In this document: one piece after another, positions 32,530-35,879 of the stretch | Layout: the number at the start of each line of letters is the position of its first letter | How positions within the stretch are numbered: the first letter of the stretch is position 1 | Source: Syntrophales bacterium | GTDB lineage: Bacteria; Desulfobacterota; Syntrophia; Syntrophales; UBA8958 | Length of the DNA: 46,255 bases | Direction of reading: 5' to 3' | NCBI GenBank assembly: GCA_026417625.1 | Contig: JAOACW010000012.1 | Coordinates: 1-46,255 of the forward strand | Made by a program: the position numbers and the translations under genes | The notes under the pieces: generated by a model | The model's database searches: none | The model's input: the letters and a program-made list of their open reading frames with translations, nothing else | What the model was told of the DNA's origin: nothing

Positions 32530-33993
32530 TTACACTTCAGTCTCTATACCCGCCATTACTCGGGCGTCTCTTTTCAGTTGATCGAGGACTTTAGAGAGGG
32601 CACTTTGTATTGCAATTCTTTGGGCTTGGGGAGATCCTGCACCGTGGGTTGATTCAATGGGGATCACTGATGCTTGGCCACTCAGATATTCAATCAGTCT
32701 CATCATTCTTATACGGTGTTCTGTGGGAACGTCATTTTTCGCCTTTAGATACTTTTTCAAAATAGGACCGATTTTTTCATGCTTAAAATCTCGAGCGGTA
32801 GGTGCCGTGCACACTAAACCGCCTGCAATGTCTGCAATCTTGAATGTTCCATCCCAAATGGCCTTTACACCTTGCAATTTTGCGACGTTTATGTAGAGGG
32901 AGTCGGGGAAATAGACGCCCGATGGGCTTTTAAAGGCTTTATATACAGAGGCGAGTGCGCATCCTGCTGAAAGCTCACTATGGAAGTAGAGTTCGTTAAG
33001 TTTTTCCTGTATATGTCTAGCTTTACCAACCCCGTTGTACTCAGCGATTACGGCTGATGCCCCAATGAGTAAATCTCTGTGACCCGTTTTGCATCCCGAA
33101 GTGGCTAGCCTTTGAAGAAGAGCGAAATAGTTGACAAGAGAACCGGCGAATTTCCACTCTCCACACATAAAAACTCTATCTTTTGGCACGAAGACATTGT
33201 CGAAAATTACGTGTGTTGATCCGTGTACCCCGTAGTGAGCGTTCCCGAAATCCATTTCCTCTCCCACGAGACGTCTCATATTGGGTGCTGGTGCCTCGGC
33301 TATGTGGATGACACCTGGTGTATCGGTCGGTATGGCAAAACTCACCGCGTAGCTTTCCTCGCCGGGTCCGAGGGCAGTACAGGGTACTACGACTATTTCG
33401 TTGGCAATTGCAGCTCCTGATATACTTGCTTTTGCTCCCTTTACTACAATACCTTTCTCCGTATTCTCTACGATGTGCACGTATGAATCGGGATCGGATT
33501 GACTGCCTGGGTTAAGGCTCCGGTCTCCTTTTACATCCATCATCGCTCCGCATACGGCTAGATCTTCTTTCTGCACGTATTTTAGGAATTCCAGAAATCT
33601 GCCGTGGTATGGAGTACCCAATTCACGGTCCATTTCAAACGTGACTGCGTAAAGACTGTTTAATGCGGCGGTACTGACACAGCGAGCACCAATGCAGGCA
33701 CCGTGTTTGCGCACGAAATATCGCGCCATGTTAAACCTTTTTGCTAAGTCATCCCTGTCCAGCATAATGTGTAAGAAACGGTTTACCGTGTCTTTAATAA
33801 ATGGGGACCAGACCGTCAGATAATTTTTGTATTCCTCCTTAAGGGAGAGTTCATAGACAAGGCCGATGGCGTTTAGCGCCGGCTTTATCAGTGGATGAGA
33901 GGTTAGGTCGTAGATCTGTTCCCCTAAGGCGTAGAGTTCCACTTTTTGTTTTTTTATGCTGTCGAAGTACGCTTCTTTAGTTCTAAGAGCCAT
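32530..33993 (-). CDS. 4-hydroxybutyryl-CoA dehydratase/HpaB-family flavoenzyme
   Basis: The 487-residue product has the acyl-CoA-dehydrogenase-like fold of the HpaB/AbfD family, with MMDVKGDRSLNPGSQSDPDSYVHIVE, YGVHGSTHVIFDNVFVPKDRVF and SGCKTGHRDLLIGA. AbfD is an FAD and 4Fe-4S enzyme that dehydrates 4-hydroxybutyryl-CoA; its ligands, from memory, are Cys99, Cys103, His292 and Cys299. Here the matching region has Cys100 and Cys105 (four residues between them) and Cys301, but Gln294 where the His should be. The cluster may thus be altered and the reaction different. A monooxygenase role like HpaB is unlikely if the host is anaerobic. The start follows GGAGGG. It is divergent from an Fe-S/cytochrome b pair. 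Confidence 0.75.
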   Translation of the reverse strand: MALRTKEAYFDSIKKQKVELYALGEQIYDLTSHPLIKPALNAIGLVYELSLKEEYKNYLTVWSPFIKDTVNRFLHIMLDRDDLAKRFNMARYFVRKHGACIGARCVSTAALNSLYAVTFEMDRELGTPYHGRFLEFLKYVQKEDLAVCGAMMDVKGDRSLNPGSQSDPDSYVHIVENTEKGIVVKGAKASISGAAIANEIVVVPCTALGPGEESYAVSFAIPTDTPGVIHIAEAPAPNMRRLVGEEMDFGNAHYGVHGSTHVIFDNVFVPKDRVFMCGEWKFAGSLVNYFALLQRLATSGCKTGHRDLLIGASAVIAEYNGVGKARHIQEKLNELYFHSELSAGCALASVYKAFKSPSGVYFPDSLYINVAKLQGVKAIWDGTFKIADIAGGLVCTAPTARDFKHEKIGPILKKYLKAKNDVPTEHRIRMMRLIEYLSGQASVIPIESTHGAGSPQAQRIAIQSALSKVLDQLKRDARVMAGIETEV

Positions 33994-34240: not shown

Positions 34241-35221
34241 ATGCTACTCTCAAGAAGGAGTTTTATGACTTTGTCATCATCTATTTTTCTTTCCTTTGTT
34301 CTTGGCGGTGGGAGGGTGAATGCCGTTGGAGGGCAGTTCGCAACGATAATTGACATTACCAGATGTGATGGTTGTAAGAACGAACCAGTACATTGGTGTG
34401 TGAAGGCATGTAGAGACTATAATAAAAATAGATTTCCCGAACCAAAGAAACCGATCCCACCTTACTGGCCTAGAGATTTTTATGAGGACTGGTCAGATAA
34501 AAGGGATAAAGTTGACACTTTAACTCCTTACAATTGGCTGTTCGTTCAAAGAGTCAGTATAGATTCTCATGAGATATACATTCCAAGAAGGTGCATGCAC
34601 TGCGATAATCCTCCATGCGTGAGGGGATGTCCTTTTGGTGCTTTGACAAAACAGCCGGAAGGCAATTCTGTGATAAACGACAAACTGTGTTTTGGGGGTG
34701 CAAAGTGCAGGGATGTATGCCCTTGGCATATACCGCAGAGACAGGCTGGTGTAGGGATCTATTTAGAGATTCTGCCAAAATATGCGGGCGGCGGGGTAAT
34801 GTACAAATGTGACCTTTGCAAAGATAGAATAAAGGAAGGTCAGGAACCCGCTTGTGTCATAGCTTGTCGGGAAAGACTTGGTGAAAAAGCTGTGTTTATT
34901 TTTGGTGAAAGGAAGCATGTGTTCGAGCTTGCCCAGAGAAGAGTTAAAGAAGAGGGGTTGTGTGTATATGGAAAGAGAGAAAATGGTGGAACATCCACAC
35001 TGTATCTTTCACAAGTCCCCTTTGAGGCTATAAATGAAGGTTTGAAAGCAAAAAAGGAGAGGTTTATGTTGCCTGTTGGGGTTGAAAACAGAGTTGAAAA
35101 ATCCTTTAATCCCATTGGCAAAGTGGTTTTAGCTTCAGGATTAATCTCAACTGTGGGGGCAGTGGTTGCAGCAGTTTTGTTTAAGAAAAGTCCTCAGGAG
35201 GCAAAGCACGATGAAGGCTAA
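34241..35221 (+). CDS. Tat-exported four-cluster Fe-S protein (formate dehydrogenase/hydrogenase beta-subunit type)
   Basis: This 326-residue electron-transfer subunit starts with a twin-arginine signal (SRRSFM at 4-9, hydrophobic segment to about 24). Four ferredoxin-like motifs follow: Cys42/45/53/57, Cys118/121/126/130, Cys150/156/160 and Cys190/193/205/209. The third motif (CFGGAKCRDVCP) lacks one Cys, leaving 15, so one cluster may be 3Fe-4S or use another ligand. A C-terminal membrane helix (about 297-316) anchors it. ATG 34241 follows GGAGG; the frame opens earlier at 34169 but would bury the Tat motif. It overlaps the cytochrome b gene by 11 bases. No catalytic subunit lies beside it. 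Confidence 0.85.
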   Translation: MLLSRRSFMTLSSSIFLSFVLGGGRVNAVGGQFATIIDITRCDGCKNEPVHWCVKACRDYNKNRFPEPKKPIPPYWPRDFYEDWSDKRDKVDTLTPYNWLFVQRVSIDSHEIYIPRRCMHCDNPPCVRGCPFGALTKQPEGNSVINDKLCFGGAKCRDVCPWHIPQRQAGVGIYLEILPKYAGGGVMYKCDLCKDRIKEGQEPACVIACRERLGEKAVFIFGERKHVFELAQRRVKEEGLCVYGKRENGGTSTLYLSQVPFEAINEGLKAKKERFMLPVGVENRVEKSFNPIGKVVLASGLISTVGAVVAAVLFKKSPQEAKHDEG

Positions 35222-35879
35222 GATCAAAAGGCACTCTCTTATTGAGCTTTTAGAACACTGGAGCGTTGCTATTTCAGGTATAGTTCTTCTGTTTACCGGT
35301 CTTGGGTGTTTGCCTCTCTACAAGAGGTATTTTATTTCCGAAATTCCTGGGCTGGGATGGACAGCGGATTTTAACAATGTAACAATGGTTCACTATGTAG
35401 CTTCAATTGTTTTTGTATCTGCTGTGTTGTTTCATATAGTGTTTCATGGTTTGAGGAAAGAATTCGGTCTTCTACCGAAGAGGGGTGATGTTTCAAGAGG
35501 TCTTAAAGTTATTAAAGCAATGTTTGGTTTTGGTGAAGAACCACCTTCAGAAAAGTACCTTCCTGAACAAAGAATTGCCTATGTGGGAATGGGTTTTGTC
35601 ATATTGGTTTTAACAGGAACGGGGATTATAAAGGTTTTAAAAAACCTGGAATGGGTCATTCTCCCACCAATGGTCGAAACAGTGAATACCCTTATACATA
35701 CCTTGTTCGGTTTGCTTTTTATGTTAGCTTTTGTTGTTCATGTGGGTGTGGTTTTGCTTTTTAAGGCAAATTGGCCTCTTCTTAGGAGTATGTTTACAGG
35801 ATACGTTGACGAAGAGTATGTGAAGCACAGACATACTTTGTGGTATGAAGAATTGAAAAAAACCACTGCTAAACAGTGA
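35211..35879 (+). CDS. Membrane cytochrome b, formate dehydrogenase gamma-subunit type
   Basis: This 222-residue protein has four membrane helices with histidines placed as in FdnI: His16 in helix 1, His61 in helix 2, and His163 and His177, 14 residues apart, in helix 4. It would hold two b hemes and pass electrons from the upstream Fe-S protein to quinone, or back. The start ATG 35211 has AGGAGG about 10 bases upstream, inside the previous gene. The pair lacks the molybdopterin subunit that usually completes a formate dehydrogenase. Confidence 0.85.
   Translation: MKAKIKRHSLIELLEHWSVAISGIVLLFTGLGCLPLYKRYFISEIPGLGWTADFNNVTMVHYVASIVFVSAVLFHIVFHGLRKEFGLLPKRGDVSRGLKVIKAMFGFGEEPPSEKYLPEQRIAYVGMGFVILVLTGTGIIKVLKNLEWVILPPMVETVNTLIHTLFGLLFMLAFVVHVGVVLLFKANWPLLRSMFTGYVDEEYVKHRHTLWYEELKKTTAKQ

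Follow-up and report, generated by a model that had tools for sequence, protein, structure and literature searches.

A Syntrophales AbfD-like protein with glutamine in place of the cluster histidine is probably an uncharacterised acyl-CoA enzyme

A 46,255-nucleotide stretch of DNA from an anaerobic Syntrophales bacterium, here called the window, encodes a member of the AbfD/HpaB superfamily that has kept the three cluster cysteines of 4-hydroxybutyryl-CoA dehydratase (AbfD), has glutamine at the position of the cluster histidine and has gained one residue between the first two cysteines. Comparison with related sequences indicates that these ligand changes define a conserved class of the family and are not the peculiarity of one protein. 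Rather than a normal dehydratase, the window protein is probably an acyl-CoA enzyme yet to be characterised, whose cluster is ligated in another way. The gene and the residues on which the argument turns are listed here; His-type and Gln-type denote family members with histidine or glutamine at the AbfD His292 position.

32530..33993 (-): AbfD-like gene for a putative acyl-CoA enzyme, 487 aa, ATG start; a single gene with no close same-strand neighbour
33694..33696 (-): Cys100, predicted cluster ligand (AbfD C99), kept in all 20 Gln-type members
33688..33690 (-): Gly102, insert between the two cysteines (CIGARC); Gly in 20 of 20 Gln-type members, a gap in 78 of 78 His-type members of the same alignment
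33679..33681 (-): Cys105, predicted to bind the cluster (AbfD C103), placed by alignment
33223..33225 (-): His257, a candidate for a substitute ligand or acid/base group; the same in every Gln-type member, variable among His-type members
33217..33219 (-): Ser259, aligned with AbfD E257
33112..33114 (-): Gln294, counterpart of the AbfD cluster ligand His292 in a gap-free alignment
33100..33102 (-): Thr298, aligned with AbfD Y296
33091..33093 (-): Cys301, predicted cluster ligand (AbfD C299), placed by alignment
32653..32655 (-): Glu447, counterpart of the AbfD base E455, retained in the alignment

The closest solved structures found by sequence search were 6vjr (E 1e-106) and 1u8v (E 3e-106); 1u8v is AbfD of C. 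aminobutyricum and 6vjr its archaeal counterpart from Nitrosopumilus maritimus. The alignment with AbfD covers residues 3-485 of the window protein at 39% identity. The Pfam domains PF11794 (HpaB_N, 269.9 bits) and PF03241 (HpaB, 172.5 bits) both score above the gathering score, while the NCBIfam models HpaB-1 (TIGR02309; 152.6 bits against a cut-off of 480.2) and HpaB-2 (TIGR02310; 68.9 bits against 885.2) are not reached. An AlphaFold2 model built from 48 family sequences (mean pLDDT 93.5, pTM 0.91) has the AbfD fold, with a TM score of 0.95-0.96 and an rmsd of 1.4-1.5 to 1u8v. A fold search with this predicted model gave Z scores of 54.8 for 6vjr and 53.7 for 1u8v, compared to ~42 for HpaB and ~25 for acyl-CoA dehydrogenases. 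The preliminary description, made from the letters of the window, had proposed that the AbfD-family scaffold is kept, and both the full-length alignment and the near-identical predicted fold bear this out. By contrast, HpaB (2yyg, the oxygenase component of 4-hydroxyphenylacetate 3-monooxygenase) shares the Pfam domains and overall fold of the window protein but is only 22-23% identical to it, superimposes with an rmsd of ~3 and has no cysteines at the cluster positions.

The same description had singled out the spacing of Cys100 and Cys105 and the glutamine at position 294, and both observations hold. Four residues separate the cysteines, CIGARC compared to CFQRC in AbfD, which is exactly one extra residue, and AbfD H292 and C299 align with Q294 and C301. 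Because the stretch between these last two positions is ungapped (HRQSYGGCK in AbfD, QRLATSGCK in the window protein), the Q294 assignment is secure. An alignment with AbfD and the nearest homologues places no His and no CxxxC pair at the ligand positions of the window protein; 6vjr, which resembles it in full-length homology and fold, differs in having CFQRC and the His ligand. Further substitutions emerged beyond those first described: Y296 is T298, T190 is S192, Q101 is A103, and the E257 segment, GGQEALV in AbfD, reads VHGSTHV and contains no acidic residue, the exact partner of E257 depending on gap placement. AbfD K300 and E455 are retained as K302 and E447, the E455 stretch being likewise ungapped. 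His257 lies in a one-residue insert adjoining the former E257, an active-site position in AbfD. Together with Gly102, Asn238, Ser259, Gln294 and Gly439 it makes up a set of six residues that every Gln-class member has and few His-class members show. In the model, residues 98-102 form a loop ahead of helix 103-125 and the extra residue falls in this loop, where, as predicted, it is accommodated without disturbing the fold. The longer CxGAxC loop would probably re-position the cluster.

In AbfD, His292 and three cysteines reportedly hold the cluster, and Y296, E455, E257 and T190 are said to help form the flavin radical, their variants showing no or <1% activity. The H292C, H292E and Cys-to-Ala variants reportedly lose dehydratase activity and partly break into smaller oligomers. 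The window protein shares with AbfD the full-length homology, the fold, the three ligand cysteines and the equivalents of K300 and E455, whereas it lacks those of His292, E257, Y296 and Q101, has Ser for T190, spaces its first cysteines by four residues and contains the new invariant His257. Since His292, E257 and Y296 are gone, the mechanism described for AbfD cannot operate here. The name 4-hydroxybutyryl-CoA dehydratase is also unsuitable, because three defining AbfD features are missing, namely the CxxxC spacing, the His292 ligand and the combination of E257 and Y296.

The window gene has close company. Among 155 genomes of the same order, ten other copies were found in nine other genomes, with identities from 76% (L042) to 52%. 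Residues C100 (the fragment L040 included), C105, Q294, C301, S259 and E447 are common to the window protein and all ten copies, and C100, C105, Q294 and C301 are kept in 11 of 11 copies of the subclade and in all nine sequences of a sister subclade. Across 395 genomes sampled evenly from the phylum, only two further sequences matched beyond E 1e-130, one with CTGARC and Phe (L138) and the other an ordinary CFQRC/His protein (L139). Between the window gene and four orthologues, third codon positions are 67% different compared to 12-17% for second positions, which indicates that the gene is constrained by purifying selection; dN is 0.16-0.25, and dS is saturated in all pairs with the window gene, hence no dN/dS ratio is given. 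AbfD-like genes as a whole are strongly expanded in this order, with 13 matches in the richest genome (G012) and one or more in 40 of 60 sampled relatives. The window genome (1.79 Mb, 32 contigs) has five family members including paralogues. One of these, a CNYRC/His-type gene (in L045, 8882-12561 of G000:C1), lies immediately 3′ of what looks like a FAD/NAD-dependent oxidoreductase and of a C_GCAxxG_C_C-like protein, a distinct family context as annotated by eye.

Across the wider family, the spacing of the first two cysteines co-varies with the residue at the fourth ligand position. We tabulated, by alignment column, the 197 family members in which none of the three cysteines is lost. His occupies the fourth position in 163 of 164 sequences with CxxxC spacing, the sole exception being L057 with Ala; CxxxxC spacing goes with Gln (20), Tyr (5) or Phe (1) and never with His; and CxxC spacing goes with Val in 7 of 7, these wider tallies coming from sequences picked by similarity to the window protein, with remote types under-sampled. 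The Fisher p-value of 4e-31 is not used as evidence as the sequences are related. A tree built without the trait columns unites the Gln and Phe types in one clade (100/97 support) and places the Tyr type apart; on this tree two changes are required for the insert and three for the loss of His, and the AU test does not reject that the insert arose just once (p-AU 0.34). With so few evolutionary events, the table does not amount to 197 independent tests. The CxxxxC/Tyr type comprises L102, L108, L111, L112 and L118, and the CxxC/Val type comprises L090, L093, L094, L101, L105, L115 and a second paralogue from the window genome (L046, 2189-3565 of G000:C16). A literature search that took in few subscription papers found no account of AbfD-family members with altered ligands.

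Phe and Val are unable to ligate iron. Thus, a three-Cys cluster without His would be the common denominator of these types. The relatives that seemingly have no cluster site (L038, L098, L106, L114, L116 and L117) lose cysteines, whereas in the Gln class the cysteines are retained while the His is lost together with a change in loop length, which suggests that a cluster is present in this class but lacks the histidine. Hence, of the possibilities first raised, an absent cluster is the less supported, all 20 Gln-type members having three cysteines, while a differently ligated one can be given a more definite form: the cluster is probably held without His.

The surroundings of the gene say little about its substrate. 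It stands alone, with a divergent upstream and a convergent downstream neighbour, and a promoter and terminator scan found nothing above shuffles. The divergent genes (34241-35876, plus strand) encode a ferredoxin-type subunit, seemingly with a Tat-like N terminus, whose best NCBIfam match, HmcB, is below cut-off, and a membrane subunit resembling formate dehydrogenase gamma or cytochrome b561, with no adjoining catalytic subunit. A functional link to this Fe-S/cytochrome b pair was rejected, as it lies on the opposite strand and is not seen beside the orthologue L042. Orthologue L039 is accompanied by a short regulator, an acyl-CoA dehydrogenase and a glycyl radical enzyme with its activase, L129 by a CoA-transferase III and an enoyl-CoA hydratase, L041 by a thiolase, and the Phe-type relative L140 by a hydroxyacyl-CoA dehydrogenase, an enoyl-CoA hydratase and an acyl-CoA ligase. 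Thioesterase-like or acetamidase-like genes are shared near L042, L126 and L128 and do not clearly form one operon with the AbfD-like gene. Judged from these predicted gene products, acyl-CoA breakdown is the shared theme of the relatives' neighbourhoods, with no single partner conserved. Because the orthologue neighbourhoods differ and the window gene is alone, context does not fix the substrate. The glycyl radical enzyme and activase genes at L039 (1936-5334 of G026:C32) lie just upstream of the orthologue; the enzyme has the catalytic motif SGCVYMEIPGKN and, reaching none of the cut-offs of the NCBIfam glycyl radical models, possibly has an undescribed activity. A general tie to glycyl radical enzymes was rejected, the window genome having no PF02901 match.

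The sister subclade consists of nine sequences with CFGGRC and Gln, among them the window-genome paralogue L043, and has lost the E455 base. In L144, L145 and L147 the CFGGRC-type AbfD-like gene sits between the genes for an acyl-CoA dehydrogenase and a beta-keto acid cleavage enzyme, the latter recognised by Pfam in L144 and by near-identical N termini in L145 and L147. The acyl-CoA dehydrogenases at these loci share 80-83% identity with their counterpart next to L043, and a large regulator of the sigma-54 type lies upstream in L144, with a gene of similar size in L147. This gene order probably represents an undescribed acyl-CoA pathway. As the sister subclade lacks the E455 base and has its own gene order, the Gln class holds at least two enzymes.

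What best accommodates these data, with a probability we place somewhat above even, is a soluble enzyme with FAD and a three-Cys [4Fe-4S] cluster that acts on an acyl-CoA other than 4-hydroxybutyryl-CoA, its fourth iron being open or filled by His257. The cluster would be held by C100, C105 and C301, with Gln294 instead of the His ligand. If the fourth iron is open, the substrate, through its hydroxyl or thioester carbonyl, or water may bind there as in cluster B of 2-hydroxyacyl-CoA dehydratase; alternatively, the invariant His257 may take this site. Glu447 would be the base that removes a proton from the acyl chain, and since this base is kept, the likeliest type of reaction is an elimination from, or a double-bond shift in, an acyl-CoA intermediate. 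That the reaction is other than 4-hydroxybutyryl-CoA dehydration, as first suggested, is likely, because Y296 and E257 are also lost and the same genome has a paralogue (L044) with the complete set of AbfD residues. Conversely, the loss of His might simply abolish cluster function, given that AbfD ligand variants lose activity.

Two known systems offer partial comparisons. Cluster B of 2-hydroxyacyl-CoA dehydratase is a [4Fe-4S] cluster with one position occupied by water or substrate that serves the ketyl-radical dehydration of an acyl-CoA (PMC8473912). The likeness proposed here is a hypothesis of working principle, as that protein is unrelated and needs an ATP-driven activator. The gamma-butyrobetainyl-CoA TMA-lyase BbuA is a flavin enzyme that carries out a redox-neutral C4 elimination from an acyl-CoA (PMC8364193) but is acyl-CoA dehydrogenase-like, ~10% identical to 4HBD and no close relative. 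A more far-reaching proposal, that the AbfD fold here includes a class whose open-iron three-Cys [4Fe-4S] cluster faces FAD and binds the substrate directly to iron, is tentative, and we regard it as conceivable but doubtful.

Among the alternatives, His257 could replace His292 outright, giving a [4Fe-4S] cluster bound by three Cys and one His, where the E257 strand and not the C-terminal helix supplies the His, and AbfD-like chemistry on another acyl-CoA. The invariance of His257 in 20 of 20 Gln-type members, its insert beside an AbfD active-site position, its lack of conservation in the His type and the Tyr found at this position in the Phe-type relative L138 are in keeping with such a role, but the Tyr and Val types lose His292 without gaining His257, and we consider this unlikely. 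So, too, do we consider a cluster with a purely structural or electron-transfer role in an ordinary flavin oxidoreductase or isomerase of the acyl-CoA dehydrogenase kind. The loss of E257 and Y296, which act in AbfD radical formation, the relatedness of the fold to acyl-CoA dehydrogenases and the retention of E447 in the window subclade with its loss in the sister subclade would fit, yet true acyl-CoA dehydrogenases already lie beside L039, L144, L145 and L147.

That the substitutions are tolerated in a working 4-hydroxybutyryl-CoA dehydratase or vinylacetyl-CoA isomerase is improbable: the nearest characterised relatives have that activity and the E455 and K300 equivalents are kept, but the His ligand, E257 and Y296 are all replaced in a genome where L044 has the full AbfD set. 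Still harder to credit is a cluster-free flavin monooxygenase of the HpaB kind, since the shared HpaB_N and HpaB domains are offset by the strict retention of three cysteines in the class, scores below both HpaB cut-offs, a modelled fold far closer to AbfD (rmsd 1.4) than to HpaB (3.0) and, in one relative, an adjoining glycyl radical enzyme, an anaerobic type. A decaying paralogue or a sequencing error, for which five paralogues in a 1.79 Mb genome might speak, has a negligible probability and is refuted for practical purposes by purifying selection and by ten other copies, 52-76% identical, that share all the substitutions.

AbfD is known for pairing a flavin with a His-ligated [4Fe-4S] cluster, whose function is a long-standing question. 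The natural, conserved series described here, in which His gives way to Gln, Tyr, Phe or Val along with altered cysteine spacing, provides ready variants for probing it. In NCBIfam the class scores only to HpaB oxygenase models, far below their cut-offs, and its members are therefore at risk of being annotated as O2-dependent hydroxylases in anaerobes; the distinction between CxxxC, CxxxxC and CxxC would help annotators to separate likely 4-hydroxybutyryl-CoA dehydratases from the rest. If the open-iron proposal is true, the flavin-radical chemistry of AbfD would be joined with the iron-bound-substrate chemistry of 2-hydroxyacyl-CoA dehydratases, for an undescribed acyl-CoA reaction.
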